This document shows positions 24,734 to 47,714 of a DNA stretch of 64,000 bases, in pieces. Each line of letters opens with the position of its first letter. Position 1 is the first letter of the stretch. The DNA comes from Noviherbaspirillum massiliense JC206 (GTDB lineage Bacteria; Pseudomonadota; Gammaproteobacteria; Burkholderiales; Burkholderiaceae_D): assembly GCF_000312045.1 (NCBI RefSeq), contig NZ_HE978634.1:2102098-2166097 (forward strand), read 5' to 3'. Both the position numbers and the translations under genes were made by a program. The notes under the pieces were generated by a model. That model worked only from the letters and a program-made list of their open reading frames with translations, did no database searches and was not told the DNA's origin.

Positions 24734-25321
24734 ATGCCGAACTCCAATCGAGGCTCGGTCGGTTTCCGCTCCAACGAGTTTGAACAGGAATACGACCGCC
24801 CTTCCAAATCCCAGTTGAAACGCGAAATGACCGCCCTGCAAGAGCTGGGCGAAGAACTGGTCAATCAGCCCAAGGATCGCGTCATGCGCGTGCCCATGCC
24901 GGAAGATGTGCGCGAAGTCATTCTCGAATGCCAGCGCATCAAGGACCATGAAGGCCGACGCCGCCAGTTGCAGTATGTCGGCAGGAAGATGCGTACGCTG
25001 GAACCCGAGGAAGTCGCGGCCATCCAGAAAGTGCTGGACGGCTGGAAAGGCCAATCCAGGGCGGATACGGCGGCATTGCATGCGCTTGAACGGCGTCGCG
25101 ACAAGCTGCTGGCGGATGACAAGGCCCTGACCGACCTGATGGCCCAGCATCCGGAACTCGATGTCCAGCAATTGCGAACCCTGATACGCAACGCGCGCAA
25201 GGAACAAGCCGAGAACAAGCCGCCCAAGGCTTATCGCGAAATCTTCCAGATCCTGAAGGAATTGCAATCCTCTTCCGCGAAGCAGACGAACGAGCAAGAT
25301 GACCAAGAAAACGAAGAATGA
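24734..25321 (+). CDS. darP: Ribosome biogenesis factor DarP (YjgA, DUF615)
   Basis: Small basic-acidic helical protein (195 residues) that binds late 50S assembly intermediates; the E. coli homologue promotes peptidyl-transferase-centre maturation. Seen: FEQEYDRPSKSQLKREMTALQELGEELV, the family-typical RRQLQYVGRKMRTLEPEEV, and a charged C-terminus. I start at the ATG at 24734 (M-P-N-S-N-R) rather than at the TTG at 24713. Its end overlaps mog by 23 bases. Confidence 0.93.
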   Translation: MPNSNRGSVGFRSNEFEQEYDRPSKSQLKREMTALQELGEELVNQPKDRVMRVPMPEDVREVILECQRIKDHEGRRRQLQYVGRKMRTLEPEEVAAIQKVLDGWKGQSRADTAALHALERRRDKLLADDKALTDLMAQHPELDVQQLRTLIRNARKEQAENKPPKAYREIFQILKELQSSSAKQTNEQDDQENEE

Positions 25322-25916
25322 TCCCGATGAAGTGCTGATTGGCCTGGTGTCGATTTCCGACCGCGCCTCCAGCGGCACCTATGAGGACCAGGGCATCCCC
25401 GCTCTGCGCGATTGGTTTTCCGCCGCACTCGCCAGCCCGTGGCAAATGGAAACCCGGCTGATTCCGGATGAGCGTTCCCTGATTGAAAAGACTTTGATCG
25501 AACTGGTCGACGACCTCGGCTGCGACCTGGTGCTCACGACTGGCGGCACCGGCCCGGCCCGGCGCGATGTAACACCGGAAGCCACACTTGCGGTCGCCAC
25601 CAAGGAAATGCCGGGCTTCGGCGAACAGATGCGGCAGATCAGCCTTAGATTCGTACCGACTGCCATCCTGTCGCGGCAAGTGGCGGTTATTCGCGAAACG
25701 CCGGACCATGCGGCGCTCATCATGAACCTGCCGGGACAGCCGAAGTCGATCAAGGAAACGCTGGAAGGCTTGAAAGACGCGGACGGCAAGCAGATCGTAC
25801 CCGGCATCTTCGCCGCCGTGCCCTACTGCATCGACCTGATCGGCGGACCGTATATCGAAACCCATGAAAGCATCTGCAAGGCATTCCGGCCGAAGTCGGC
25901 GATCCGGCAGCGCTGA
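25299..25916 (+). CDS. mog: Molybdopterin adenylyltransferase Mog
   Basis: Activates molybdopterin with ATP before metal insertion by MoeA, giving molybdenum or tungsten cofactor. The 205-residue product carries the MoCF-binding fold: GLVSISDRASSGTYEDQGIPAL, the TTGGTGPARRDVTPEAT loop, and the ALIMNLPGQPKSIKETL segment. Its cofactor would be required by the formate dehydrogenase encoded further along the window. It overlaps darP by 23 bases, so translation of the two is probably coupled. Confidence 0.94.
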   Translation: MTKKTKNDPDEVLIGLVSISDRASSGTYEDQGIPALRDWFSAALASPWQMETRLIPDERSLIEKTLIELVDDLGCDLVLTTGGTGPARRDVTPEATLAVATKEMPGFGEQMRQISLRFVPTAILSRQVAVIRETPDHAALIMNLPGQPKSIKETLEGLKDADGKQIVPGIFAAVPYCIDLIGGPYIETHESICKAFRPKSAIRQR

Positions 25917-30610: not shown

Positions 30611-31816
30611 TTATACCTTGTTTTCCGTAGTGAATGACCGAATCGAGCCAGCAAACTTCAGCAAGTTGGACGCCAGATCGCCATTCGCCAGGATTTGCTG
30701 CTGCCATTCGGCCGCTCTGCGCGCAATAGCCGGCATATCGGCCGCAAAGCGCGACCACAGCGCAGGCCAGTCGCCCCTCTCTTCTCCACTTCCGACGCGT
30801 GCATCGTTCCAGCGCAGGGAGAAGTTCCTCAGACTTTCAATGTCGGGAGAATAGCGCTGCAAAAACGCGCGCAGTTTCTTGTGATGCAGGTTCTCGTCCT
30901 GAGGATAGATATGCCAGATGAATGGCTGCCCCGCCCACTGGGCACGCACAAAGGAATCCTCCCCGCGCACGAAATTGAGGTCGCACGCCCATAGTAACTT
31001 GTCGTAATCCGGTTGAGCGACAAAAGGCAGCACGCGTACGGTGAGCGCATTGCAGGTACGTGCCGCACCCGGCCTTGCTTCTGTTCCGAGAAATGCCTGA
31101 ATAGCCTCTGTTGCAACCCCTTCCGGGGCGAGGCAGGTTATTGCCTTGTCGCCTCTTTGCCAGACATCGAACAGCGCCGGGACTGGCGCGTGCGGATAAC
31201 AAAACAGGGATGCCTTCAACGATGCCATTTCCTCCGGACTCAGGCCGACTTGCGCAAGAAAGGCCTTGATGGCAGTCTGATCCGATTGAAATTGCCGACG
31301 CTGCTTTTCCAGCGAGGATTCATGCAGCAGGCCGCCGGTTTTATTCGTAAATCCGGGAAAGAAAAAGTATTTCGTTATCGGCAGGCGCGGATGCGGCGAA
31401 GGCAAGGCGTGGCACCCCTCAACCCACTCCTCGGCACTCAAGCCTTCGAGGTTGAGCCATACCGGACGCGGATTGCACTCTGCCATTGCGGCAATGTAGC
31501 CGGGCGGGATATCGCAGCCGAAGAATTCAATGACGATATCGGCAACATCGTCCGTCGAAAACACACCGTCCTGATTGCGCCAGTGGAGCACGGTCACACC
31601 AGCAAGCTCCTGCACTTCCGCGTCGGTCACCACATCCGGACAAATCCGTTGAAAGCTCCGCAGATCATCCACCCACAAGGTGACGCCGATGCCATGTTCA
31701 TGCTGCAGCTGCCGTGCCAGACGCCAGCAGATGCCGATGTCGCCATAGTTGTCGACAACTTTGCAGAATATGGCCAGGGTGGTTGCCTGGATTTTGTTGG
31801 AGTACATTTTTGACAT
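30611..31816 (-). CDS. earP: EF-P arginine rhamnosyltransferase EarP
   Basis: Transfers rhamnose from dTDP-rhamnose onto Arg32 of EF-P, which is needed for EF-P activity. The 401-residue GT-B type protein (DUF2331) shows both catalytic aspartates in the N-terminal FCKVVDNYGDIGICWRLARQL (Asp22 and Asp26) and the conserved R-G-E-D-S motif at 284-288 with Glu286. An internal ATG three codons in is an alternative start. It lies 33 bases after tupA on the same strand, but a separate promoter is likely since its partner is efp. Confidence 0.96.
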   Translation of the reverse strand: MSKMYSNKIQATTLAIFCKVVDNYGDIGICWRLARQLQHEHGIGVTLWVDDLRSFQRICPDVVTDAEVQELAGVTVLHWRNQDGVFSTDDVADIVIEFFGCDIPPGYIAAMAECNPRPVWLNLEGLSAEEWVEGCHALPSPHPRLPITKYFFFPGFTNKTGGLLHESSLEKQRRQFQSDQTAIKAFLAQVGLSPEEMASLKASLFCYPHAPVPALFDVWQRGDKAITCLAPEGVATEAIQAFLGTEARPGAARTCNALTVRVLPFVAQPDYDKLLWACDLNFVRGEDSFVRAQWAGQPFIWHIYPQDENLHHKKLRAFLQRYSPDIESLRNFSLRWNDARVGSGEERGDWPALWSRFAADMPAIARRAAEWQQQILANGDLASNLLKFAGSIRSFTTENKV

Positions 31817-31849
31817 TCACACCGGCAGGCAAATGCCTGCCCTGATTTT

Positions 31850-32689
31850 CTACTTGCCCTGAGCGTTGTCTTTCTTCGCCGAGGGGAAGAATACCTGCTG
31901 GCCTTCCACCCTGAACTGCGCGATCTGCCTTTGCCCCTCGTCCGAGGTGATCCAGTCGATCAGCTGCATCGCTCCCTTGTAATTGATGTCCTTGTACTTG
32001 GCTGGATTGACAGCAATGATCCCGTAGGGATTGAACATGCGCGGATCTCCTTCCACTTCCACCGCCAGCCCCGTCTTCGCCCGATAGGCATTGAAGGTGG
32101 CGCGGTCGGTCAGGGTATATGCCTTCAATTCCGAGGCCATGGTCAGCACCTCGCCCATGCCCATGCCGGCCGAGACGTAGGAGCTGCCCTGTGGTTGGGT
32201 GCCGACCTGCTTCCAGTAATTCTTTTCCATCTGGTCGGTACCGGAATTGTCTCCGCGCGAAATGAATTTCGCCTTGCTGTCGACAATCTTCTTCATGGCG
32301 GCCAGCACATCCTTGCTGCCCTTGATGCCGGCCGGGTCATCAGACGGGCCGACGATGATGAAGTCGTTATACATCACGTCGCGGCGATTGACGCCATGTC
32401 CCTCGGCGACAAACTTGTCTTCCGAAGGCCGCGCATGAACCAGGGTGACATCCACGTCGCCATTTTTTGCCAGCTCCAGCGCCTTGCCGGTACCCACGGC
32501 AATCACCTGCACCCGGCTGCCCGTCTTCGCTTCGAATTTCGGCAACAGGTAATTGAGCAGGCCGGAATTCTCGGTACTGGTCGTGGTCGACATCTTGATG
32601 ACCGATTGTGCTTGCGCCAGAGGCGTGACGAGGGAAATGCAGGCAAGGGCCGACAACCAGAACAGGGAAAGGCGTCGTTTCAATCTCAT
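31850..32689 (-). CDS. tupA: Tungstate-type ABC transporter binding protein TupA
   Basis: Periplasmic oxyanion-binding protein, 279 residues from the ATG at 32689, chosen for the GGAG ribosome site six bases upstream and the Sec signal (RRLSLFWLSALACISLV...AQAQ). The motif TTTSTENSGLLNYLLP right after the signal is typical of TupA-type tungstate proteins and differs from ModA. Later parts such as VGTGKALELAKNGDVDVTLVHARPSEDKFV agree. Affinity for tungstate over molybdate is inferred from family only. It is the last gene of tupBCA, 11 bases after tupC. Confidence 0.92.
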   Translation of the reverse strand: MRLKRRLSLFWLSALACISLVTPLAQAQSVIKMSTTTSTENSGLLNYLLPKFEAKTGSRVQVIAVGTGKALELAKNGDVDVTLVHARPSEDKFVAEGHGVNRRDVMYNDFIIVGPSDDPAGIKGSKDVLAAMKKIVDSKAKFISRGDNSGTDQMEKNYWKQVGTQPQGSSYVSAGMGMGEVLTMASELKAYTLTDRATFNAYRAKTGLAVEVEGDPRMFNPYGIIAVNPAKYKDINYKGAMQLIDWITSDEGQRQIAQFRVEGQQVFFPSAKKDNAQGK

Positions 32690-32700
32690 CGCAATCTCCT

Positions 32701-33387
32701 TCAAAGTTTCGCATTTTTCAAAATCGGCCGTGCGGTACGATATTCAAGGTGGCCGTCTCGCAGCTTCAGGCGCTGCATGCCATGCAAGCCGATCAGGTCG
32801 CGGTCGTGGCAGGCGATGATGATGCTGCTTCCTTCGCCGACCAGCCCCGGAATCAGTTCGATCACCTTCTCCCGCGCCGCGCCATCGAGGTTCGCCGTCG
32901 GCTCGTCCAGCAGCAAGAGTCTTGGTGCCAATACCTTTGCGCGCGCCAGCGCGACACGCTGCTTTTCTCCGCCGGACAGGCTGTCGGGCTTGCTGTCTCG
33001 CAGATGAACGACATCCGCCCATTGCATTGCCTGCTCGACGCGCGTTGCAATCGCCCTTTTCGGCAAGCCGCGCGCCTTCAGGCCATAGCCGATATTGGCA
33101 GCCACACTGGTTGAAAACATCACGGGATGCTGGTGCACATACACCACCGCGTCGCGCATGGCAGCGGCATAGGGATGCCAGCTAACCGGCTGGCCGAGAA
33201 AATGCGCCTGTTCCACCTCGGCGCGCTCAAGACCGGCAAGGATGCGCAACAGAGTGCTCTTGCCGGCACCGTTCCTGCCGGTCAGGACGTAGGCCGTGGC
33301 AGCTTCGATAGCCAGCGCCTCGATGTCGAAAAGAATCCGCTCGCCGAAGCGCTTGCGCAGGCGATGGAGCGTCAGCAGGGAAGTCAT
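32701..33387 (-). CDS. tupC: Tungstate-type ABC transporter ATPase TupC
   Basis: ATPase subunit of 228 residues starting at the ATG at 33387, which overlaps the tupB stop (ATGA); the open frame extends further upstream but that part is antisense to tupB. Seen: Walker A GRNGAGKS at 37-44, Q-loop VHQHPVMF, signature LSGGEKQR, Walker B LLLLDEP and switch His in ACHDRD. It lacks the C-terminal TOBE domain found in ModC, which fits TupC. Confidence 0.92.
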   Translation of the reverse strand: MTSLLTLHRLRKRFGERILFDIEALAIEAATAYVLTGRNGAGKSTLLRILAGLERAEVEQAHFLGQPVSWHPYAAAMRDAVVYVHQHPVMFSTSVAANIGYGLKARGLPKRAIATRVEQAMQWADVVHLRDSKPDSLSGGEKQRVALARAKVLAPRLLLLDEPTANLDGAAREKVIELIPGLVGEGSSIIIACHDRDLIGLHGMQRLKLRDGHLEYRTARPILKNAKL

Positions 33388-34097
33388 GACGCCAGCCTGG
33401 AGATGCGGGTATCGCCCTGCAGCAGTAGCAGGGCGGCATTGATCACCAGCGCGATCGTCATCAGCACTATGCCGAGCGCAAGGCCCTGGGCAAATTCTCC
33501 CTTGCTGGTTTCCAAGGCGATGGCCGTGGTCATGGTCCGGGTTTCTCCCGCTATATTGCCTCCTACCATCAGGGCACACCCGACTTCGGACAGCACGCGG
33601 CCGAAGCCGTTGATCACGGCTGCCATTACACCGAAGCGCACTTCATGCAGCACCGTCGTCATCACGCGCCAGCGCGAAGCGCCATGGGTGAATGCTGTTT
33701 CCGCCAGACGCGGATCGGCAGCCTGCACTGCAGCAAGCACGAAAGCAACCAGCACCGGCAAGGCGATCAAGACCTGCCCGACGACGATGCCCGATTGCGA
33801 AAACAACCAGTGCAGCCCGCCCATCGGCCCCTGCCGCGACAATAATCCGTACAACAGCAGGCCGATCAGTACGGTAGGCAATGCGAGCGCTGCCTGCACC
33901 AGCCAGATTAGGATGCGGCGGCCCGGAAAGGAAGCGGTAGCGAGCACATAGCCTGTGAGCACGGCAATCGGTGCGGCGATGATCAGGGCGACAAGGGAAG
34001 TCTTCAGCGATACCCAGATAATTTGCCATAGCGCAGCATCGCCGGAGAAAAGCAGGACGAATGCATCGCCAGTGGCTTCGAAGAGTTGCATGGGCAA
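33384..34097 (-). CDS. tupB: Tungstate-type ABC transporter permease TupB
   Basis: Inner-membrane permease of 237 residues with about six helices. The binding-protein-dependent loop ...EVGCALMVGGNIAGETRTMTTAIALETSKGEFAQGLALG is characteristic of TupB. The gene follows fdhD by 17 bases and overlaps tupC, so metal uptake and formate dehydrogenase are in one transcription unit by spacing. Confidence 0.92.
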   Translation of the reverse strand: MPMQLFEATGDAFVLLFSGDAALWQIIWVSLKTSLVALIIAAPIAVLTGYVLATASFPGRRILIWLVQAALALPTVLIGLLLYGLLSRQGPMGGLHWLFSQSGIVVGQVLIALPVLVAFVLAAVQAADPRLAETAFTHGASRWRVMTTVLHEVRFGVMAAVINGFGRVLSEVGCALMVGGNIAGETRTMTTAIALETSKGEFAQGLALGIVLMTIALVINAALLLLQGDTRISRLAS

Positions 34098-34114
34098 TCT
34101 ACCAAACGTCGAGT

Positions 34115-34960
34115 TCAGGCGAGCTTGAAGGCCGGATCCAGCACGTCCGGCTCCATGACCAGCCGCTCTTTTCCGGTCAACAATAAAAAATGCTTGCCGG
34201 TGCAGCGCGCAAGAAGAGACATGCCGACTTTTTGCGCAACTGCATGCCCCATTTGCGTCGTGCCGGAACGCGACAGCAAGAACGGGATGCCCATCTGGGC
34301 ACCCTTGATCACCATTTCCGACGTCAGCCGTCCCGTCGTGTAAAAGACCTTGTCAGCGCCGGAAATATCCTCCAGCCACATCTTTCCCGCAATCGCATCC
34401 ACTGCATTGTGACGGCCGACATCTTCGACGAAGTACAGCATCTCGCCGTCGGCATTGAACAGCGCGCAGCCATGTACCGAGCCTGCCTGCTTGTAGATGG
34501 ATTGCTGCGTGCGTATGGTGTCGACAATCCGGTAAAGCGTGGATTGCCTCAGGCGCGCATCCGGCGGCAGGCTGATCGCATCGACCTCATCCATGAGGCC
34601 GCCGAACACCGTACCCTGGCCGCACCCTGTGGTCACGATCCGCTTGGATGTGCGGTCTTCGATATTGCTGATGCCGTTGCGCGTGGTGACTGCCACCGCT
34701 TCCACGCTCCAATCCACCTGCACCGTAGCAATCTCCTCGATCGACCTGATCAGGCGCTGATTACGCAGGTAGCCGAGCGTGAGCGCTTCCGGCGCACCTC
34801 CAAGCGTCATGAGCGTCACCAGCTCGCGCTTGTCGAGATAAATCGTCAGCGGACGCTCGGCGGGGATCGCGATGGTCGACACCCGGCCGCGTTCGTCCAT
34901 GGCTTCAACCGGATGGGTAAGATCGATTGCAGCATTGGACAGGAACGGACGACGCGGCAT
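34115..34960 (-). CDS. fdhD: Formate dehydrogenase sulfurtransferase FdhD
   Basis: Passes sulfur from a cysteine desulfurase to the metal-bis-MGD cofactor, making formate dehydrogenase active. I start at the ATG at 34960 (M-P-R-R-P-F), giving 281 residues; the longer frame runs into fdhA. Seen: LGYLRNQRLI, TTGCGQGTVFGG, HGCALFNADGEMLYFVEDVGRHNAVDAI, FYTTGRLTSEMV, and LSRSGTTQMG. Where E. coli FdhD has a C-x-x-C pair, only one Cys is seen (GCGQG). It lies 10 bases after fdhA. Confidence 0.94.
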   Translation of the reverse strand: MPRRPFLSNAAIDLTHPVEAMDERGRVSTIAIPAERPLTIYLDKRELVTLMTLGGAPEALTLGYLRNQRLIRSIEEIATVQVDWSVEAVAVTTRNGISNIEDRTSKRIVTTGCGQGTVFGGLMDEVDAISLPPDARLRQSTLYRIVDTIRTQQSIYKQAGSVHGCALFNADGEMLYFVEDVGRHNAVDAIAGKMWLEDISGADKVFYTTGRLTSEMVIKGAQMGIPFLLSRSGTTQMGHAVAQKVGMSLLARCTGKHFLLLTGKERLVMEPDVLDPAFKLA

Positions 34961-34970
34961 GATGTTCAGA

Positions 34971-37799
34971 TCAATTGATGCTTGCCAGCAGCTGGCCACC
35001 GCCATAGCTGCTTTGCTGCGGCGCTACTCCTCCAAGCGAAATGCGGATGGCGCAATACTTGAACTCCGGAATTTTGCCGAACGGATCCAATGCAGCATTG
35101 GTCAGTTTGTTGATCGCCGCTTCATAGTAGCAGAAGGCAACGAACACGGCGCCACGCGGTGAGCTCTCGTCGGCACGGGCATACAGCGACACCTTACCGC
35201 GCCGCGACTCGACGGTGATGATGTCGCCCGGCTTGCCGCCGAGGTCCGCCAGGTCCAGCGGATGCACCAGTGCCACCGGATCCGGCTCGATCGCATCCAG
35301 CACACTGGCGCGGCGGGTCATGCTGCCGGTATGCCAGTGTTCCAGCTGACGCCCCGTGATCAGCACCATCGGATAATCCGTATCCGGCCGCTCTGCCGCA
35401 GGAATGATGTCAGCGGGGACAAAGCGCGCGCGGCCGGTCGCCGTCGGGAAGTGCTCGGTGAATACCACCGACTGCCCGGGGTCGCCTTCCTTGGCGCAGG
35501 GGTAGGTCACGCCATGCTCGCGCTCCAGGCGGTCCCAGGTGATGCCGGCAATGCTCGCCATGCTTAGTCGCATCTCGTCAAAGACTTGGGAAACATGGGT
35601 ATATTGCCAATCCAGGCCCAAGCGCTGCGCGATCTGCTGGATGATCCAGAGGTCCTGCTTCGCCTGTCCGGGCGGATCGATCGCCTGCCGCCCGAGCTGG
35701 ACCACGCGATCGGTATTGGTGAAGGTGCCGGTCTTTTCCGGGAAGGCGGATGCCGGCAGGATCACATCGGCAAGATAAGCGGTCTCGGTCAGGAAGATAT
35801 CCTGCACCACCAGATGGTCCAGCGCCGCCAGTGCTTCCCTGGCATGATTGGCATCGGGGTCGGACATGGCCGGGTTCTCGCCCATGATGTACATGCCGCG
35901 CACGGTTCCGGCCTTGATCGCATGCATGATTTCCACCACGGTCAAGCCCGGCTTGTCATCCAGCGGCATGCCCCACAGCTGCTCGAACTTGGCTTTTGCT
36001 GCCGGATTATCGACCCGCTGGTAATCCGGATACATCATCGGAATCAGGCCGGCGTCGGACGCCCCTTGCACATTGTTCTGGCCGCGCAGCGGATGCAGGC
36101 CGGTGCCGGGACGGCCAATCTGGCCTGTCATCAGGGCCAGCGCAATCAAGCAGCGGACATTATCGGTTCCATGCACGTGCTGAGATACGCCCATGCCCCA
36201 GAGGATCATCGACGCTTTCGAAGTGGAATATAGTCTTGCCACATAGCGGATGGTATCGGCATCGATGCCGCAAATCGGCGCCATGGCCTCCGGGCTGTAC
36301 GCTTCGACATTCCGCTTGAGATCTTCATAACCGATGGTACGGCCGTCAATGAAGCTGGGATCGACCAGGTTTTCATGCACGATCACATGCATCATCGCGT
36401 TCAGGAGGGCCACATCGGTATCGGGCTGGAATTGCAGATAACGGTGCGCCATCCGTGCCAGGTCTGAACGTCGGGGATCGCACACGATCAGTTTCGTGCC
36501 ATTCTTGACCGCATTCTTGATCCAGGTAGCGGCAACCGGATGATTCACTGTCGGGTTCGCACCGATTACGATCACCACTTCTGCCTTGGCCACGTCCATG
36601 ACCGGATTGGACACCGCACCCGAGCCTATGCCTTCGAGCAGTGCGGCGACCGAAGAAGCGTGGCACAGACGCGTGCAATGGTCGACGTTGTTGGTGCCAA
36701 AGCCGGTACGCACCAGCTTCTGGAACAGATAGGCTTCTTCATTGCTGCCCTTGGCCGAACCGAAGCCGGCCAGCGCGCGTGGGCCATGCGTGTCGCGGAT
36801 CATGCGCAGCTTGCCGCCGGCCAGCTCCAGAGCCTCTTCCCAGCTCGCTTCACGGAACACCTCAAACAGCTTGTCCGGGTCCATCACCATGTCGGCGCGC
36901 TTGGGCGCATCACTGCGGCGAATCAGAGGTGTTTTCAGGCGCTGGGGATGGTGCGCGTAATCGAAGCCGTAACGGCCCTTGACGCACAGGCGCTTGTGGT
37001 TGGCGGGTCCATCGCGTCCTTCGACATAAAGGATCTTGTTGTCCTTGACGTGATAGGTCAGCTGGCAGCCGACGCCGCAATACGGGCATACCGACTCGAC
37101 CTGTTTGTCCGGCGTGGTCTGGGTGGCGCCATTGCGCACCAGCTGGGCCGGCATCAAAGCGCCCGTGGGACAGGCTTGCACGCATTCGCCGCAGGCCACG
37201 CAAGTCGATGCGCCCATCGGATCATCCATGTCGAACACGATCTTGGCGTCCTCGCCACGGAAGGCGAGCCCGATCACGTCATTGACCTGTTCATCCCGGC
37301 AGGCGCGCAGGCAGCGGGTGCACTGGATGCAGGCATCGAGGTTGACCGCAATCGCGGGATGCGACAAATCCGCCTTGATCTGTTCGCGAGGCGCGAAACG
37401 CGGTGTGCCCACCTGCAGCTTTTCGGCCCACTGGTCGACTTCATTGTGACGGGTGTAATCGGTCTCCGGCATGTCGGATTGCAGCAGCTCCAGTACCATC
37501 TGCTGCGCTTTCACCGCGCGTTCGCTATTCGTGGTAACCGCCATGCCATTGGCAGGATGACGGCAGCAGGAAGGTGCCAACACCCGCTCGCCCTGGATTT
37601 CCACCATGCAGGCGCGGCAATTGCCCGCGGTATCCAACCCCTCCTTGTAGCACAGGTGCGGAATCTCGACGCCTTCGCGCTGCGCCACCTGAATGATCGA
37701 TTCATGCGCGCTGCCACTGACTTCCTTGCCATTCAAGGTGAACGTCACTTGCGTGGCTGCGGCGGCTTGTGCCAGTTCATTACGGGTAATTGCGTTCAT
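34971..37799 (-). CDS. fdhA: NAD-linked formate dehydrogenase, catalytic alpha subunit
   Basis: Cytoplasmic Mo- or W-bis-MGD enzyme subunit (942 residues) that oxidises formate to CO2. Domains in order: plant-type [2Fe-2S] (Cys50, 61, 64, 78), two [4Fe-4S] (Cys157/160/163/167 and Cys200/203/206/210), and [4Fe-4S] Cys238/241/245/272. The molybdopterin domain follows, with metal ligand Cys379 in HCTRLCHASSV (selenocysteine in E. coli FdhF), and then a C-terminal cofactor-binding domain. Size and layout match FdsA and the tungsten enzyme Fdh1A of Methylobacterium. It starts 30 bases after the beta gene. Confidence 0.95.
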   Translation of the reverse strand: MNAITRNELAQAAAATQVTFTLNGKEVSGSAHESIIQVAQREGVEIPHLCYKEGLDTAGNCRACMVEIQGERVLAPSCCRHPANGMAVTTNSERAVKAQQMVLELLQSDMPETDYTRHNEVDQWAEKLQVGTPRFAPREQIKADLSHPAIAVNLDACIQCTRCLRACRDEQVNDVIGLAFRGEDAKIVFDMDDPMGASTCVACGECVQACPTGALMPAQLVRNGATQTTPDKQVESVCPYCGVGCQLTYHVKDNKILYVEGRDGPANHKRLCVKGRYGFDYAHHPQRLKTPLIRRSDAPKRADMVMDPDKLFEVFREASWEEALELAGGKLRMIRDTHGPRALAGFGSAKGSNEEAYLFQKLVRTGFGTNNVDHCTRLCHASSVAALLEGIGSGAVSNPVMDVAKAEVVIVIGANPTVNHPVAATWIKNAVKNGTKLIVCDPRRSDLARMAHRYLQFQPDTDVALLNAMMHVIVHENLVDPSFIDGRTIGYEDLKRNVEAYSPEAMAPICGIDADTIRYVARLYSTSKASMILWGMGVSQHVHGTDNVRCLIALALMTGQIGRPGTGLHPLRGQNNVQGASDAGLIPMMYPDYQRVDNPAAKAKFEQLWGMPLDDKPGLTVVEIMHAIKAGTVRGMYIMGENPAMSDPDANHAREALAALDHLVVQDIFLTETAYLADVILPASAFPEKTGTFTNTDRVVQLGRQAIDPPGQAKQDLWIIQQIAQRLGLDWQYTHVSQVFDEMRLSMASIAGITWDRLEREHGVTYPCAKEGDPGQSVVFTEHFPTATGRARFVPADIIPAAERPDTDYPMVLITGRQLEHWHTGSMTRRASVLDAIEPDPVALVHPLDLADLGGKPGDIITVESRRGKVSLYARADESSPRGAVFVAFCYYEAAINKLTNAALDPFGKIPEFKYCAIRISLGGVAPQQSSYGGGQLLASIN

Positions 37800-37829
37800 G
37801 CTGTCTTTATCCTTGCCTTTCGCTCATCG

Positions 37830-39530
37830 TCACGCCAGCTCTTGCGGAAAGTATTTGATCACGCAGTCGATCGGGTTGGGTGCTGCCTGTCCCAGGCCGC
37901 AGATCGAAGCATCGCGCATCACGGCTGACAGTTCTGCCAGCAAGGTTGTATCCCAGTGAGGCTGTTCAATCAGTTGCAGCGCTTTGGCTGTGCCGACACG
38001 GCAAGGCGTGCACTGCCCGCAGGATTCTTCCTTGAAAAACTGCATCAGGTTGCGCGCGGCAGCCACTGCGCTGTCCTTTTCGGACAGCACGATGATCGCC
38101 GCGGATCCGATGAAGCAGCCATACGGCTGCAAGGTATCGAAATCCAGCGGAATGTTGCTCATGCTTGCGGGCAGGATGCCACCGGACGCGCCGCCCGGCA
38201 GATACGCATACAGGCGGTGGCCGTCCTGCATGCCGCCGCAGTATTCCTCGACCAGTTCCGCCAGCGTAATGCCGGCCGGTGCGAGGTGCACGCCCGGCTT
38301 CTTGACCCGGCCCGATACCGAGAACGAGCGCAAGCCCTTGCGGCCGTTCCTGCCATGCGATGCGAACCAGTCACCGCCCTTTTCCAGCAACTCGCGCACC
38401 CAGTACAGCGTCTCGAAATTGTGCTCCAGCGTTGGGCGCCCGAACAGGCCGACTTGCGCCACGTACGGTGGACGCAGGCGCGGCATGCCACGCTTGCCTT
38501 CAATCGACTCGATCATTGCCGATTCTTCGCCGCAGATATAAGCCCCCGCGCCTCGACGCAAATGAATTTCCGGCAAACCGGACACCGGAGGGGCCGCGCG
38601 CAATCGCGCCAGTTCGGCTTCCAGCATCGCGCGACAGCCATGGTATTCATCGCGCAGGTAAATGTAGATCGCAGAGATTCCCACTGCCCAGGCGGCGATC
38701 AGCATCCCTTCCAGAAAGCGGTGCGGATCGCGCTCCAGATAGGTCCGGTCCTTGAATGTACCCGGTTCGCCCTCGTCGATATTGACTGCCATCAGGCGCG
38801 GCCCCGGTTCATTGCGTACGATGCGCCACTTGCGCCCGGCAGGAAAGCCTGCACCGCCCAGACCGCGCAAGCCCGACGCTTCCATCGTCCGGATCACGTC
38901 TTCCACATCACGCGCGCCGGACATGCATTCTTTCAGCAGGCGATAGCCGCCCTGCTCCTGGTAATCGCCATAATCGATATAGCGCTCTACGGATGGGTTC
39001 ACCGAACCTGCCGCCACTGCGGCCCTGACGGCATCGTTGCTGGCATTCGCGATCGGATTCTGCCCCACCACAGCTACCGGCGCCTGTTCGCAGCGGCCGA
39101 CGCAAGGTGCCGGGATGACGCGCACTTCCTTGCCCAGAATTGCCGGCAGCTTGGCGAGCAATTCGCCGGCTCCGGCCAGTTCGCATGACAGGCTGGCACA
39201 CACCCTGACCGTCAGGCTGACCGGGCTGGCCGCCTCGTCACCTTCCTTGATGACTTCAAAATGATGGTAAAAGGTCGCCACTTCATACACTTCCGCCTGA
39301 GCCATGCGCAGTTCCTGCGCCAGTGCCGCCAGATGCGGGGCCGACAACCGGCCATAGCGGTCGTTGATGAGGTGCAGGTATTCGATCAGCAAATCTCGGC
39401 GGCGCGGAGAGGAAGCCAGCAGGGATTGCACTTGTTCCAGCGCGACTGGGTCGACGCGGCGCCCCTTGGGAGCCTGGCGCTTGCGCTCCTTGCTAACAGC
39501 GGGCGCAATTGGTATGACGGTTCGGTTCAC
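37830..39530 (-). CDS. fdhB: NAD-linked formate dehydrogenase, fused NuoE-NuoF-type beta subunit
   Basis: Diaphorase subunit of 566 residues that passes electrons from the alpha subunit to NAD+. Residues ~25-95 are the NuoE helical bundle, and ~105-170 the thioredoxin-like [2Fe-2S] domain (Cys111, 116, 143, 147). From ~195 on it is NuoF-like: GLRGLGGAGFPAGRKW at 220-235, GAGAYICGEESAMIESIEG at 327-345, and a [4Fe-4S] with Cys504/507/510/544. A separate NuoE/FdsG-like gene is absent, so the domains are fused as in Methylobacterium Fdh1B. It lies 85 bases after the transporter gene. Confidence 0.94.
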   Translation of the reverse strand: MNRTVIPIAPAVSKERKRQAPKGRRVDPVALEQVQSLLASSPRRRDLLIEYLHLINDRYGRLSAPHLAALAQELRMAQAEVYEVATFYHHFEVIKEGDEAASPVSLTVRVCASLSCELAGAGELLAKLPAILGKEVRVIPAPCVGRCEQAPVAVVGQNPIANASNDAVRAAVAAGSVNPSVERYIDYGDYQEQGGYRLLKECMSGARDVEDVIRTMEASGLRGLGGAGFPAGRKWRIVRNEPGPRLMAVNIDEGEPGTFKDRTYLERDPHRFLEGMLIAAWAVGISAIYIYLRDEYHGCRAMLEAELARLRAAPPVSGLPEIHLRRGAGAYICGEESAMIESIEGKRGMPRLRPPYVAQVGLFGRPTLEHNFETLYWVRELLEKGGDWFASHGRNGRKGLRSFSVSGRVKKPGVHLAPAGITLAELVEEYCGGMQDGHRLYAYLPGGASGGILPASMSNIPLDFDTLQPYGCFIGSAAIIVLSEKDSAVAAARNLMQFFKEESCGQCTPCRVGTAKALQLIEQPHWDTTLLAELSAVMRDASICGLGQAAPNPIDCVIKYFPQELA

Positions 39531-39615
39531 GGTGACCTCGGCTTTGGAGAGGCGCAGAATGCCGTGCTGCAGAGTATTTGCTCTGCAGCACGGACAAGCC
39601 GAGCGCCCTTAAGGA

Positions 39616-41292
39616 TTATTTAAACAGGATCACGGCCTTCTGCAAGGTGATCCAGACGCCGACTGCGAGAGGAATGCCCACCGCGAGCCAGGCAAACAAG
39701 GCCAATACTGCACCATTTGCGACAGTCGGAGTAGCGATGGCAACGGCCCCACCGGATGCACCGGCATAGCCAGCCTGAGTCGAGCCAGCATTGCCTGCCG
39801 TCGAACGTTCATGGGCAAGCTTGCGTTCGCGCGCCAGTTCTTCGTCGGTCATGAAATTCTTCTCGGCGACCGGGCGGACAAGCAGGTTGCAGATGAATCC
39901 GAGCACCAGCATGCCGGCAAGGATATACATGGTGATGTCATATGCCTGAGCCTTCGGCACCCCATGCGCAATCTGGTACTCGCGGATGTAATTCACCAGC
40001 ACCGGACCAAGCACGCCTGCGGTCGCCCAGGCAGTCAACAGCCTGCCGTGAATCGCGCCTACCATCTGGGTGCCGAACATGTCAGCAAGATACGCCGGAA
40101 TGGTTGAGAATCCCCCGCCGTACATCGAGAGGATGATGCAGAATGCCAGCACGAACAAGGCCAGGTGGCCGCTCTTGGCCATGGTCGGAATCGACACGTA
40201 CAGGACGAAGCCGAGCGCAAGGAAGACGAAATAAGTCATCTTGCGTCCGATGTAGTCGGAGAACGATGCCCAGACGAAACGTCCGCCGATATTGAACAGG
40301 GAAAGCAGACCGGTGAAACCTGCCGCAATGGCGGCAATCTGCCCCTTCTGGGCCGCAGTCAGGTCATTGAACGGCACATCGAGGCCGATCAGCTTGCCGC
40401 CGAACACTTCCTGCAGCAGCGGAGAAGCCATGCCGAGAATGCCGATACCCGCTGATACGTTCAGGGTCAGCACGGACCAGATCAGCCAGAACTGCGGAGT
40501 CTTCCAGGCAACATTCAGATGAACATGCCTGCTGGTGATCATCGCATTGTTGGCTTGTGTTGCAGGCGGGGTCCAGCCCTCCGGCTTCCAGCCGGTCGGG
40601 GGCACGCGATAGCCCAGTGCGCCCGCCATCATGAATACGAAATAGATGGCCGCCAGCGCCAGGAAGGTTTCCCACACGCCGACCGAGGTTGGTGTTGCAA
40701 AAAACTTCATCAGCATGTCTGCCAGCGGTGCGCCGATCATGGCGCCGCCGCCGAAGCCCATGATTGCCATGCCAGTCGCCATGCCGCGGCGGTCCGGGAA
40801 CCATTTGATCAGGGTCGACACCGGCGAAATGTAGCCCAGGCCGAGACCAATGCCGCCGATGACGCCGGCTCCCAGCCACATGAGCCAGATCTGGTGGACA
40901 TAAATGCCGAATGCCGAAATCACCAGGCCGCCGCACCAGCAGATGGTGGCCACGACACCCGCCTTGCGCGGGCCCGCATGTTCCAGCCAGCCGCCGAACA
41001 GTGCAGCGGCGGCGCCGAGGAACAGGAAGAACAGGGTGAACATCCAGCCCAGCATGGAAATTTTCCAGTCGCAAGTCGTCGCGAAAATCTCCGCGAAGAA
41101 GCTCATGTCCTTCGGACAGGCGATGGATTCCTTGATGCCAATGGCCTTGGACAAGGGCAGCCAGAAGACTGAAAAGCCGTAGGCCATGCCGATGCACAAA
41201 TGAATCGCCAACGCCGCCGGCGGGACCAGCCAGCGGTTGAAGCCAGGCTCCGCGATGGTGCGTTCCTTGGACAGCCAATCTGATAAAGCCAT
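39616..41292 (-). CDS. OFA-family MFS transporter (oxalate/formate antiporter type)
   Basis: Twelve-helix major facilitator protein of 558 residues related to OxlT. Seen: N-terminal HLCIGMAYGFSVFWLPLSKAIG, the GGIGLGLGYISPVSTLIKWFPDRRGMATG block typical of the OFA family, and GGGFSTIPAYLADMFGTQMVGAIHGRLLTAWA. It is longer than the 418-residue Oxalobacter OxlT, with an inserted Cys-containing loop after helix 1 (SIACPKDMSFF...TTCDW) and a Ser/Gly-rich segment before a last helix. Because the formate dehydrogenase follows, formate or oxalate is the likely substrate. No oxc/frc genes are here. Confidence 0.88.
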   Translation of the reverse strand: MALSDWLSKERTIAEPGFNRWLVPPAALAIHLCIGMAYGFSVFWLPLSKAIGIKESIACPKDMSFFAEIFATTCDWKISMLGWMFTLFFLFLGAAAALFGGWLEHAGPRKAGVVATICWCGGLVISAFGIYVHQIWLMWLGAGVIGGIGLGLGYISPVSTLIKWFPDRRGMATGMAIMGFGGGAMIGAPLADMLMKFFATPTSVGVWETFLALAAIYFVFMMAGALGYRVPPTGWKPEGWTPPATQANNAMITSRHVHLNVAWKTPQFWLIWSVLTLNVSAGIGILGMASPLLQEVFGGKLIGLDVPFNDLTAAQKGQIAAIAAGFTGLLSLFNIGGRFVWASFSDYIGRKMTYFVFLALGFVLYVSIPTMAKSGHLALFVLAFCIILSMYGGGFSTIPAYLADMFGTQMVGAIHGRLLTAWATAGVLGPVLVNYIREYQIAHGVPKAQAYDITMYILAGMLVLGFICNLLVRPVAEKNFMTDEELARERKLAHERSTAGNAGSTQAGYAGASGGAVAIATPTVANGAVLALFAWLAVGIPLAVGVWITLQKAVILFK

Positions 41293-41335: not shown

Positions 41336-41355
41336 ATATGCTATAAATGGCATAT
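41336..41355. promoter_or_regulatory. Candidate operator between the transporter and regulator genes
   Basis: Twenty-base near-palindrome: ATATGCTAT and ATGGCATAT flank AA, matching at 8 of 9 positions when inverted. It lies between TTACCA (41330-41335) and TATAGT (41353-41358), a possible plus-strand promoter with 17-base spacing, so a bound protein would block regulator transcription. It may equally control the minus-strand operon. Confidence 0.5.
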
Positions 41356-41434: not shown

Positions 41435-42520
41435 ATGTTTAAGATCACCATCGACCCTCGTTGGGAAATTGCGCGCGAAGCCCAGCCATGGCTGGATACG
41501 ACTTTCCTGCTGCGCTTATTGCTGTCGATCCAGGAAACCGGATCCATTGCGCAAGCAGCGAATGAAGTCGGACTGTCCTATCGTTACGCATGGGGATTGC
41601 TGCGCGATGGCGAAAAGCTCTTCGGCCATGCACTCATGCATACCGAGCGCGGACGCGGCACCCGGCTTACTACGCTGGCGGAAAAATTGATCTGGGCAGA
41701 CCGCCGCGTCAAGGCGCGCCTGACGCCGATGCTCGAAAGTCTTGCCTCGGAAGTGGAAAACGAACTGGAAAAAGTGTTTGGCGAAAAGCCGGCAGCCATC
41801 CGGCTCGATGCAAGCCACGGCTTTGCCGTTGCCGCCCTGCTCAATCACATGGATGGCAACGGGCTGCCGGTCAATCTGCGCTATCGAAACTGCACGGACG
41901 CGGTCGCCGCCTTGTGGCAGCATGAATGCGACTTGGCTGGCTTTCATGTACCGATCGGCAAATTCGAACGGGCTGCAGTCGACTGGTACGCGAAATGGCT
42001 TGATCCCCGCACCCATTGCCTGCTGCACCTTACGACGCGCAAGCAGGGATTGATCGTCGCACCCGGCAATCCGAAAAACATCGTCGACCTGCGCGACCTC
42101 GTTCGAAGCGATGTGCGTTTTGTTAATCGCCAGGCTGGGTCGGGCACACGGATGCTGCTGGAATTGATGCTCACCAAACAAAAAATCCCGTCAGGTCAGA
42201 TCAACGGATTTGAAAGCGCCGAATTCACCCATTCCGCAGTGGCGGCCTACATCGCAAGCGACATGGCCGATGTGGGGATTGGCGTACAGGCGGCGGCACA
42301 GCGATTCAAGCTGGATTTCGTTCCGCTGCTGCAGGAACGCTACTTCTTCGCGCTGACAACGTCTTCGATCGAGAATCCCCTGATGCAAAAGCTCATCGGG
42401 ATCATGCGGTCGCCTGCATTTCAGAGCAGCGTGAATGGGCTGGCAGGATATGACGCGACCGGCGCCGGAACACTCCTGTCGCTTGACGAGGCATTTGCCA
42501 CGCTTTCGACACCGCAATAA
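41435..42520 (+). CDS. ModE-like HTH regulator with periplasmic-binding-protein-like sensor
   Basis: One-component regulator of 361 residues. The N-terminal winged helix (~20-105) carries a ModE/LysR-type HTH (SIQETGSIAQAANEVGLSYRYAWGLLRDGE, residues 31-60). Residues ~130-350 resemble a type-2 binding-protein domain (PBP_like), with KQGLIVAPGNPKNI, DVRFVNRQAGSGTRMLLELML and HSAVAAYIASDMADVGIGVQAAA. Such domains bind oxyanions or small metabolites. Being divergent from the formate/tungstate operon, it is the prime candidate for its regulator, perhaps sensing molybdate, tungstate or formate (inference). It ends at a bidirectional terminator. Confidence 0.88.
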   Translation: MFKITIDPRWEIAREAQPWLDTTFLLRLLLSIQETGSIAQAANEVGLSYRYAWGLLRDGEKLFGHALMHTERGRGTRLTTLAEKLIWADRRVKARLTPMLESLASEVENELEKVFGEKPAAIRLDASHGFAVAALLNHMDGNGLPVNLRYRNCTDAVAALWQHECDLAGFHVPIGKFERAAVDWYAKWLDPRTHCLLHLTTRKQGLIVAPGNPKNIVDLRDLVRSDVRFVNRQAGSGTRMLLELMLTKQKIPSGQINGFESAEFTHSAVAAYIASDMADVGIGVQAAAQRFKLDFVPLLQERYFFALTTSSIENPLMQKLIGIMRSPAFQSSVNGLAGYDATGAGTLLSLDEAFATLSTPQ

Positions 42521-44357: not shown

Positions 44358-45446
44358 CTAGTCATTCTTGATGACGATGCTGGGGAATTTGCTGGTCATG
44401 TCCTTGGCCTTTTCCGCCACCTTGACCGCAACGCGGCGCGCGATGTCCATGTAGATGCTGGCAACCGGGCCATCCGGGTCCGCCACCACCGTAGGCTTGC
44501 CGGAATCGGTCTGCTCGCGGATCGACATCGTCAGCGGCAATGCGCCAAGGAAGTCGACGCCGTATTCCTCGCACATCTTCTCCCCGCCGCCGACGCCGAA
44601 TATCGGCTCGGCATGGCCGCAGTTCGAGCAGATATGCGTGCTCATGTTTTCCACCACGCCGAGAATCGGGATGCCGACCTTTTCAAACATCTTGAGGCCC
44701 TTGCGCGCGTCCAGCAGCGCAATGTCCTGCGGCGTGGTCACGATTACCGCGCCGGTTACCGGCACCTTTTGCGACAGCGTCAACTGGATATCGCCGGTGC
44801 CGGGTGGCATGTCGATGATCAGGTAATCGAGGTCGCGCCAGTTGGTCTGCTCCAGCAGCTGCTGCAGCGCCTGCGTCACCATCGGACCGCGCCAGACCAT
44901 CGGCTGATCAGGATCGATCAGGAAGCCGATGCTCGATACCTGCACGCCATGGTTTTCCAGCGGTTCCATGGTCTTGCCGTCGAGGGATTCCGGGCGACCG
45001 GAAATGCCCATCATCATCGGCTGTGAAGGCCCGTAAATGTCGGCATCCAGAATGCCTACCTGTGCACCTTCGGCGGCCAGTGCCAGCGCCAGATTGACGG
45101 CGGTGGTGGACTTGCCGACGCCGCCCTTGCCGGACGCCACCGCAATGATGTTCTTGACGTTGGACATCAGCTTGACGCCGCGCTGGACCGCATGCGCAAT
45201 GATTTTCGAATGGACATTGACCTTTATATTCCCGACGTCGCCAGCGCCGCGAATGGCGGCAGTGGTCATGTCGCGAATCGTGGCAAGCTGGCTTTTTGCC
45301 GGATAGCCAAGTTCCACGTCCAGCGACACATCCGTGCCGCTCACCTGGATATTCTTTGCAGACTTGCTGGATATCAAATCCTTGCCGGTGTTGGGGTCAA
45401 TCACCTGGGACAGTGCCGCCTTGACGGCGTCGATCGTGATGCTCAT
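44358..45446 (-). CDS. apbC: Iron-sulfur cluster carrier ATPase ApbC (Mrp)
   Basis: P-loop ATPase that binds and transfers Fe-S clusters. I start at the ATG at 45446, preceded by AGGAGAAGCG, giving 362 residues. An N-terminal MIP18-like domain (~1-85) precedes the Mrp ATPase with GKGGVGKST, the [12 protein letters not shown] switch, DMPPGTGD, and the cluster-binding ICSNCG pair. It is divergent from metG across 162 bases, a pairing conserved in many Proteobacteria. Confidence 0.96.
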
Positions 45447-45608
45447 CGCTTCTCCTGAATAGTTACATAAGTCTAAACGAAATCCGCGATGACCTCGTTC
45501 GAGTGAAGTCCGGCGCATGGCAATCGGCACGGGACGGGGCTGTGTGCCAATGCGGCAAGCGCCCCCGGACTGCTAAAATGCCAGTTTTATTCCCATCCGC
45601 ACTGCAAA

Positions 45609-47714
45609 ATGAGTTCCACTACGCTTCGCAAGCTGTTCGTTACCACTGCCCTCCCCTACGCCAACGGCGCTTTCCATATCGGCCACATCATGGAATACAT
45701 CCAGGCCGACATCTGGGTCAGGTTCCAGCGCATGCAAGGCAATGAAGTGCATTTCGTCGGGGCGGACGACGCACACGGTGCGCCGATCATGATCGCCGCG
45801 GAAAAGGCGGGCGTCACGCCGCAGGAGTTCGTCGCCCGGATCGCCGCTGGTCGCAAGCAGTATCTCGACGGCTTCCATATCCAGTTCGACAACTGGAGTT
45901 CTACCGACAGTCCGGAAACGCATGAGCTCTCGAAAGAGATCTACCTCCGCCTGCGGGACGATGCAAAACTGGTCACAACCAAGACCATCGATCAGTTCTT
46001 CGACCCGGTCAAGAACATGTTCCTGCCGGACCGCTACATCAAGGGCGAATGCCCGCGCTGCGGCGCCAAGGACCAATACGGCGACTCCTGTGAAAACTGC
46101 AGCGCCGTCTATTCGCCGACGGAGCTCAAGAATCCGTATTCCACCCTGACCGGCGCCACACCGGTGCTGAAATCATCCGAACATTTCTTTTTCAGACTGT
46201 CCGACCCGCAGTGCGTCGAGTTTTTGCGCGGATGGGCGCTCGACCCGAACCGGTTGCAGCCGGAAGTTGCCAACAAGGCCAAGGAATGGCTGGAGGGCGA
46301 AGGCGGTCTGGGTGACTGGGACATCAGCCGCGATGCGCCCTATTTTGGCATTGAGATTCCGGATGCACCCGGCAAGTATTTCTATGTCTGGCTGGACGCG
46401 CCGATCGGCTATCTCGGCTCGCTGAAAAATTATTTCAACAAGACCGGCCGCGATTTCGACGCCTTCATGGCCGACCCGAACACCGAGCAATACCATTTCA
46501 TCGGGAAGGACATCATTTATTTCCACACGCTGTTCTGGCCGGCAATGCTGCACTTCTCGGGCCGCAAGGTACCGAACAACGTGTTCGTCCATGGCTTCAT
46601 CACCGTCAGCGGCGAAAAGATGTCCAAGTCGCGCGGCACCGGCATTTCTCCGCTGCGCTATCTCGATATCGGCATGAACCCGGAATGGCTGCGCTATTAC
46701 ATCGCCGCCAAGCTGAATGCCAAGGTGGAAGACGTCGATTTCAATCCGGAAGACTTTATCGCCCGGGTGAATGCAGATTTGATCGGCAAGTATGTGAACA
46801 TTGCCAGCCGCTCCTCGAATTTCCTGACGAAATATTTCGACGGCAAGCTGGATTCTGCTACCTCCGAAACATTCCTGAAGGAGCGGGAAGTCGGCGTGGA
46901 AGATGAAGTCGCCCATGCCTACGAGCAGCGCGAGTATGGCAAGGCTTTGCGCATCATCATGGGATATGCCGACACCATCAACCAGTATTTCGATGCCAAC
47001 AAGCCTTGGGAACTGGCAAAGGATGAGAACAAGCGCGCCCAGCTGCATGAAGTCGTCACCAGGTGCATGCTCGGCTTCTACCGCCTGACGATCCTGCTGA
47101 AACCGGTATTGCCGGCGCTTGCCAAACAGGCGGAAGCTTTCCTGCGCGTCGGCGACCTGTCGTGGCAGGACCTGAACCGTGCGCCCGCATCCATCGGCGC
47201 CTATTCTCATTTGATGACGCGCGTGGATGCGAAGATGCTGGACGCCTTGTTTGATATTCCGGTGGCTGCGTCTGGCCAAGCGCCGTCTTCCGGTTCGACC
47301 TCCGCACCCGCATCCCGGCCTTCCCCCTCCGAGGGGGGCGGTGAGAACGGCGCGGCGATCGAGCCGATCGCCGCGGAAATCAAGATCGACGACTTCGCCA
47401 AGATCGATTTGCGCATCGCGAAGATTGTCAATTGCGAAACAGTCGAAGGCTCCGACAAGCTGCTGCGCCTGACGCTCGACGTCGGCGAAGGCCGCATGCG
47501 CAACGTGTTCTCCGGAATCAAGTCCTCCTACAAGCCGGAAGACCTGATCGGCAAGCTGACGGTCATGGTGGCAAACCTTGCACCACGCAAGATGAAGTTC
47601 GGCGTATCTGAAGGCATGGTGCTGGCGGCTTCCGCTGCCGATGAAAAAGCCAATCCCGGCATTTATGTGCTCACCCCCTGGCCTGGTGCCGAGCCGGGCA
47701 TGCGCGTCCGATAA
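45609..47714 (+). CDS. metG: Methionyl-tRNA synthetase
   Basis: Class I synthetase (701 residues) that charges initiator and elongator tRNA-Met. Seen: [19 protein letters not shown] with the HIGH signature, a zinc knuckle [17 protein letters not shown], and [13 protein letters not shown] as KMSKS. A Pro/Ser/Gly linker at ~555-580 precedes the C-terminal EMAP/Trbp111-type tRNA-binding domain ([18 protein letters not shown]). A TAAAAT hexamer at 45574-45579 is a likely -10 box. Confidence 0.97.

Follow-up and report, generated by a model that had tools for sequence, protein, structure and literature searches.

The closest described relatives of the locus reported here are Fdh1AB, the formate dehydrogenase (FDH) of Methylobacterium extorquens (MeFDH1), FdwAB of Cupriavidus necator, and the molybdenum (Mo) enzymes encoded by fdsR-fdsGBACD operons. 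According to the available text of PMC13197769, wild-type MeFDH1 contains tungsten (W) and no detectable Mo, MobB is essential for this enzyme in M. extorquens, and that organism has a moeA1-mobB-tupBCA cluster. The accessible part of PMC13396061 reports that TupBCA restores active Me-FDH1 in Escherichia coli lacking ModABC, and that E. coli can produce the active enzyme with either ModABC or TupBCA, ModABC thus being able to supply tungstate; these results support the role of tup, but indicate that tup is not the only route. C. necator fdwAB, a two-gene soluble FDH of a betaproteobacterium, is already in print (PMC11540253, available portion), as is formate induction of FdsR (PMC7057948, available portion). 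Here we describe a locus of Noviherbaspirillum massiliense JC206, contained in a 64,000-nt stretch of contig NZ_HE978634.1 (assembly GCF_000312045.1; hereafter the window, to which all positions refer), in which genes for an Fdh1-type FDH, FdhD and TupBCA follow a transporter gene and a divergent regulator.

The eight genes probably form a single formate module, consisting of regulator and operator, transporter, Fdh1-type FDH, FdhD and TupBCA as one unit. Seven of them occupy 31850..41292 on the minus strand, and in the open reading frame (ORF) list their order is OFA transporter, fdhB, fdhA, fdhD, tupB, tupC, tupA, with intergenic gaps of 85, 30, 10, 17, -4 and 11 bases. An earlier note on this DNA had given these genes, coordinates and gaps, all correctly, and had proposed a single transcription unit, which the conserved gene order in relatives makes likely. 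The regulator was absent from its list; the operator and the regulatory front end shared with fds operons, both of which it missed, make the better story. Pfam and NCBIfam scans were consistent with the gene names, with several curated NCBIfam cut-offs missed. The features are as follows.

41435..42520, plus strand: divergent regulator ("ModEP"); HTH_1 3.3e-7, PBP_like (PF12727) 2.4e-59
41336..41355, no strand: probable operator ATATGC-N8-GCATAT, in the regulator-transporter intergenic region
39616..41292, minus strand: OFA-family MFS transporter; MFS_1 2.8e-35, NCBIfam profiles
37830..39530, minus strand: FdhB, fused NuoE-NuoF-like NAD/FMN subunit; 566 amino acids (aa), GTG start; matches 7e5z_B and 6tg9_B
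34971..37799, minus strand: FdhA catalytic subunit, NuoG-like N-terminus and bis-MGD domain; 942 aa; matches TIGR01591 and 7vw6/7e5z
34115..34960, minus strand: FdhD sulfurtransferase; PF02634 2.7e-77
33384..34097, minus strand: TupB permease; NF038017 205.8 bits, above cut-off
32701..33387, minus strand: TupC ATPase; ABC_tran 3.1e-29 (scan from ORF start 33399); 4-base overlap with tupB
31850..32689, minus strand: TupA periplasmic tungstate-binding protein; best solved matches 3lr1 (281 bits) and 5my5 (212 bits)
31824..31841, no strand: GC-rich hairpin in the tupA-earP gap, without a run of T on the operon strand

Judged by sequence, the enzyme is of the two-subunit Fdh1/FdwAB type and not FdsGBACD-like. 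FdhA scored 1291 bits against the M. extorquens tungsten FDH (7e5z, 7vw6) versus 603 bits against the FdsA of 6tg9, and FdhB scored 756 bits against 7e5z_B ("Tungsten-containing formate dehydrogenase beta subunit") versus 251.5 bits against 6tg9_B. The Fdh1/FdwAB architecture is present, with an Fe-S N-terminus and bis-MGD domain in the alpha subunit and a fused NuoE-NuoF beta subunit, and FdhA reached 773 bits on TIGR01591, above the cut-off; the M. radiotolerans protein scored 2102 bits against 7vw6. In a 102-row FdhA tree, FdhA fell into a 19-row betaproteobacterial group including many Oxalobacteraceae (support 95), where its nearest neighbour was that of Noviherbaspirillum galbum (85% identity). 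Together with Methylobacterium Fdh1A, this group belonged to a 30-row fork (support 85), and five FdsA rows formed a fully supported separate outgroup; the tree is of the "quick" type, with the Methylobacterium branches flagged as long by the tool. The bit scores of both subunits and this tree bear out the earlier suggestion that the enzyme resembles Fdh1AB more than FdsGBACD. C. necator FdwAB, a soluble two-gene betaproteobacterial FDH in the available text of PMC11540253, would belong to the same clade, to judge from its name and from the C. campinensis FdhA (80% identity). The fds systems differ in that FdsA is only 34–39% identical to this FdhA, and tup genes were not seen beside fds.

The earlier note had also called such an enzyme unusual in an aerobic betaproteobacterium, a view that the data do not support. 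Among 200 genomes of the order, an Fdh1-type FdhA (at least 63% identity; a few fragments or split genes) was found in 48 and an FdsA type (near full length, 35–39% identity) in 61, making Fdh1 a common type there, and fdwAB had already been published from C. necator. Within its own family (seven genomes sampled), Fdh1 occurred in this genome only and FdsA in four.

The fdh1-tup arrangement is rare in the order, although not unique. A distance of less than 20 kb between fdhA and tupA was observed in 3 of the 44 genomes that have the two, the present genome among them; contig breaks in draft assemblies may conceal further cases. Among the best 80 of at least 594 FdhA matches listed, 59 of which span at least 6 kb downstream of fdhA, fdhB-fdhA-fdhD-tupB-tupC(-tupA) recurred in the same order and on the same strand in five named loci, and this recurrence places the arrangement beyond chance. 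The five are Massilia/Duganella-group records (L124, L126, L132, L133 and L134) with 62–81% identity over six genes. The tup genes lie contiguously behind fdhD in Massilia frigida, Duganella sp. Root1480D1 and Pseudoduganella violaceinigra. Massilia sp. Mn16-1_5 is the sole one of the five relatives with the transporter and regulator in front, and no tupA was found after its tupC. The locus resembles the Methylobacterium systems in its alpha/beta architecture and tupBCA gene order, and plasmid pMRAD01 of M. radiotolerans carries moeA (glp), mobB, fdhBA and tupBCA-like ABC genes within ~14 kb. It differs from them in that tupBCA stands behind fdhD in the fdh operon, together with an OFA transporter and an FdsR-like regulator, while mobB was not found and moeA lies elsewhere. 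Recent import of the operon was considered and set aside, since its GC content (0.55–0.63 in 1-kb steps from 31 to 42 kb) is like that of the flanks (0.53–0.62). In the literature covered we found no description of this operon or its operator, the latter of which may be in print elsewhere, and nothing joining Duganella, tungstate and formate dehydrogenase. The parts are known, but it is uncommon to find them combined under a single regulatory switch.

Tungsten is the likely metal of this FdhAB, as suggested by the importer genes and their distribution. In the alignment of TupA with 5my5, the ligand positions TTTS, His59, Arg118, Thr124 and Asp170 are kept (His conservation was read off the alignment rather than counted); the available text of PMC5517513 names TTTS, His, Arg, Thr and Asp as tungstate-site residues of TupA, and 5my5 was taken as the D. 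alaskensis TupA because the primers of that paper encode its stretch. These residues support the tungstate-type binding protein proposed earlier. Across the 200 genomes, TupA was present in 44 of 48 with Fdh1 versus 9 of 152 others (Fisher, 1.7e-30, a value that ignores kinship). In the eight families with both states, all 18 Fdh1-positive members transcribed into the comparison had TupA and 23 of 26 Fdh1-negative members lacked it. Only 2 of the 61 FdsA genomes had TupA. At least one of the nine genomes with TupA but not Fdh1, an own-family genome (G194), has a lone TupA-like gene (L199:8585-9547, 71% identity) adjoining an XDH-type [2Fe-2S] subunit, with no above-threshold TupB or TupC match over 19 kb, indicating that TupA alone overcounts importers. 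Aldehyde oxidoreductase (AOR) was rejected as the tungstate user, as the genome contains no PF01314 match.

The description of the module as self-contained was an overstatement. The clusters moaA-mobA-moeA and moeA-moaD-moaE, as well as modABC, are all encoded away from the operon, and FdhD is the sole PF02634 match in the genome, so that it would also serve a second FDH-like protein (L025:7061-9928, contig C2), which has 955 aa, a Tat-type signal by eye, and 490.7 of 666 bits on TIGR01591. FdhD itself fell below two NCBIfam cut-offs (142.7 of 269 bits and 122.8 of 140.9 bits), and an alternative fdhD ATG at 35005, upstream, would overlap fdhA. The two MoeA proteins are of the RPGRP/GNPVA type (L022:5889-7172, beside moaA-mobA) and the KPGKP/GNPVS type (L023:6988-8217, beside moaD-moaE), and one of them has the Arg/Ala pocket pair that the available text of PMC13197769 ties to tungstate preference in M. 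extorquens MoeA. As a tungsten marker this pocket was dropped, because it is also common in genomes without a TupA hit: among 60 MoeA stretches from a longer match list, class-A MoeAs had Arg in 20/20 and Ala in 9/20 of the Fdh1- and TupA-positive genomes, and Arg in 20/20 and Ala in 15/20 of those without a TupA hit (three Fdh1-positive), the remaining 20 stretches being mixed. A Mog-type molybdopterin adenylyltransferase is encoded at 25299-25916 (+), ~6 kb past tupA.

The regulator at 41435-42520 (+) joins a ModE/LysR-type helix-turn-helix (HTH) to a PBP_like domain of the anion-binding type, and its AlphaFold model (pLDDT 92) has a LysR-type layout. ModE consists of an HTH with C-terminal TOBE/Mop domains; the protein encoded here is not a canonical ModE, as it gave no TOBE hit, has PBP_like instead, and reached 53 of 98.5 bits on TIGR00637. 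His171, Arg232 and Thr238 are unchanged in 22 of 22 homologues and align to TupA ligand residues. Homologues (E up to 1e-20) were found in 68 of the 200 genomes; where the partner gene was also present, they lay within 10 kb of FdsA in 33/36, of TupA in 30/34 and of Fdh1 in 2/32, the last two being this genome and G048. In a 22-row regulator tree, an 11-row clade (99/98) comprised all nine FDH-linked rows together with L226 and L229, and no tup-linked row. The window protein and the Massilia sp. Mn16-1_5 regulator form a pair (97/94) inside a six-row group (96/93), together with the G048 protein and fds-linked regulators from the window's own family. Its position in relatives suggests that the regulator may be an FdsR: the divergent orientation near fds was seen in L219-L222 and L224, and fdsR-fdsGBACD (Mo) operons have the same divergent regulator type in front and, in many cases, the same operator.

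Four of the sampled own-family genomes carry FdsA, and in three of these the same regulator and transporter precede fds. G006 and G164 have the regulator first, then the OFA transporter and then fds; G132 (L220) differs by an apbC-like gene between transporter and fds, and in G055 the regulator precedes fds and the transporter is unmatched. The FdsA of G006 scored 1471 bits against 6tg9 and 577 against 7vw6, and those of G055, G132 and G164 were typed by their 35–39% identity only. The same front end before fds and fdh1 indicates that the regulator and transporter precede either enzyme type.

The palindrome ATATGC-N8-GCATAT is the probable operator of this regulator, on the basis of its distribution upstream of homologues. 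It was exact in 4 of the first 18 intergenic regions, and 40 held-out upstream regions of homologues contained 8 exact and 13 one-mismatch sites (21/40). All 58 regions, some of which share a genus or genome and are not fully independent, gave 12 exact and 15 one-mismatch sites, compared with 0 and 0.08 after dinucleotide shuffling; 16 of these regions have at least three mismatches. Across the fetched loci, 2.19 Mb in total, the exact site occurs five times, each time at the start of a homologue gene. In the 4.19-Mb genome the exact site occurs once, at 41336-41355, 43 bases from the transporter start, and four one-mismatch sites lie elsewhere in it.

Taken as a working model, the divergent one-component regulator would bind the operator in the shared promoter and control one transcript, covering probable formate uptake, a soluble two-subunit NAD-linked FDH, FdhD and the TupBCA importer. 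Formate would enter through the OFA-type transporter, TupA would capture tungstate and TupBC would import it. The general pterin pathway, encoded elsewhere, would make W-bis-MGD, which FdhD would sulfurate and deliver to FdhA. FdhA would then oxidise formate at a presumed tungsten site, with electrons passing via Fe-S clusters to FMN and NAD in FdhB. An importer inside the enzyme operon would tie metal supply to enzyme synthesis.

Several observations weigh against this module or parts of it. In L124, L126, L132 and L133, four of the five relatives that share the operon, regulator and transporter are both absent from the front, and the loci contain no copy of the operator with one mismatch or fewer. 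In the available text of PMC11540253, C. necator fdw mutants show no fitness effect on formate and fds bore the load. TupA (239 of 400 bits) and TupB (185 of 320 on NF041773) missed NCBIfam cut-offs, which are annotation thresholds rather than biochemical features, and nine genomes have TupA without Fdh1. The metal assignment has further points against it, which favour a metal-tolerant enzyme that uses mainly Mo in this host, with tupBCA an extra scavenger co-transcribed by chance: modA, modB and modC are present elsewhere in the genome (modC below cut-off), as is a canonical K/S-type MoeA; MobB was not found in the genome; and four of the 48 Fdh1 genomes lack TupA, three of them having FdsA. 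We nevertheless consider a mainly Mo-dependent enzyme unlikely, given the tight co-occurrence of Fdh1 with TupA, the rarity of TupA with FdsA, and the metal content reported for wild-type MeFDH1.

The substrate of the transporter is probably formate, as its position suggests. Its scores also count against the module, since SfMCT, a model for L-lactate transporters, gave 302 of 320 bits and oxalate/formate models gave lower values (133 bits on the OFA model), both under cut-off. They would suit a carrier of lactate, oxalate or another monocarboxylate, with FdhAB using formate made in the cell, reducing CO2 or serving as an NADH valve; this is doubtful, because the same transporter precedes fds in three same-family genomes and fdh1 in N. 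galbum and Massilia sp. Mn16-1_5. That tupBCA is a transcription unit of its own, merely adjoining fdhD, finds some support in Massilia glaciei (L126), where ~3 kb, including a 902-aa PKD-domain ORF (L126:13812-16520), separate fdhD from tupB, and in the usual lack of linkage between tup and fdh1 elsewhere. We regard it as quite improbable in view of the 17-base gap here, the contiguity of fdhD and tupB in L124, L132, L133 and L134, and the failure to find a second exact operator in the window.

As a side observation, the C-terminus of the transporter is fused to an "MFS transporter small subunit" tail (NF047966, residues 529-558, window 39616-39705). The earP-efp genes lie 3′ of tupA on the same strand after a 33-base gap (31816-31850) with the hairpin in between, and read-through from tupA into these EF-P genes is possible; EarP had no above-threshold match in the Massilia/Duganella-group operon loci. 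At 44358-47714, apbC and metG lie ~2–3 kb past the regulator with gltX and two tRNAs between, and metG-apbC adjoins fdhBA in eight Comamonadaceae loci (L163, L168, L170, L174, L176, L190, L193 and L196).

The locus may also represent a metal-swap cassette, a proposal that we put forward tentatively and at somewhat less than even confidence. One regulator family and operator code would serve Mo-type fds or tungstate importers, depending on the genome; here a W enzyme and its importer would stand behind the Mo front end of relatives, and the anion-binding-type domain would read an oxyanion or formate inside the cell. There is demand for such FDHs in CO2 reduction, and according to the available text of PMC13396061 their activity in E. 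coli depends on tungsten uptake. A W-type FDH and importer behind the Mo-type front end of relatives would offer a natural paired comparison, with a defined operator, for studying how aerobic bacteria select tungsten rather than molybdenum for enzymes that look alike. Within the order, the co-occurrence of Fdh1 and TupA may serve as a genome-level marker of probable tungsten use.

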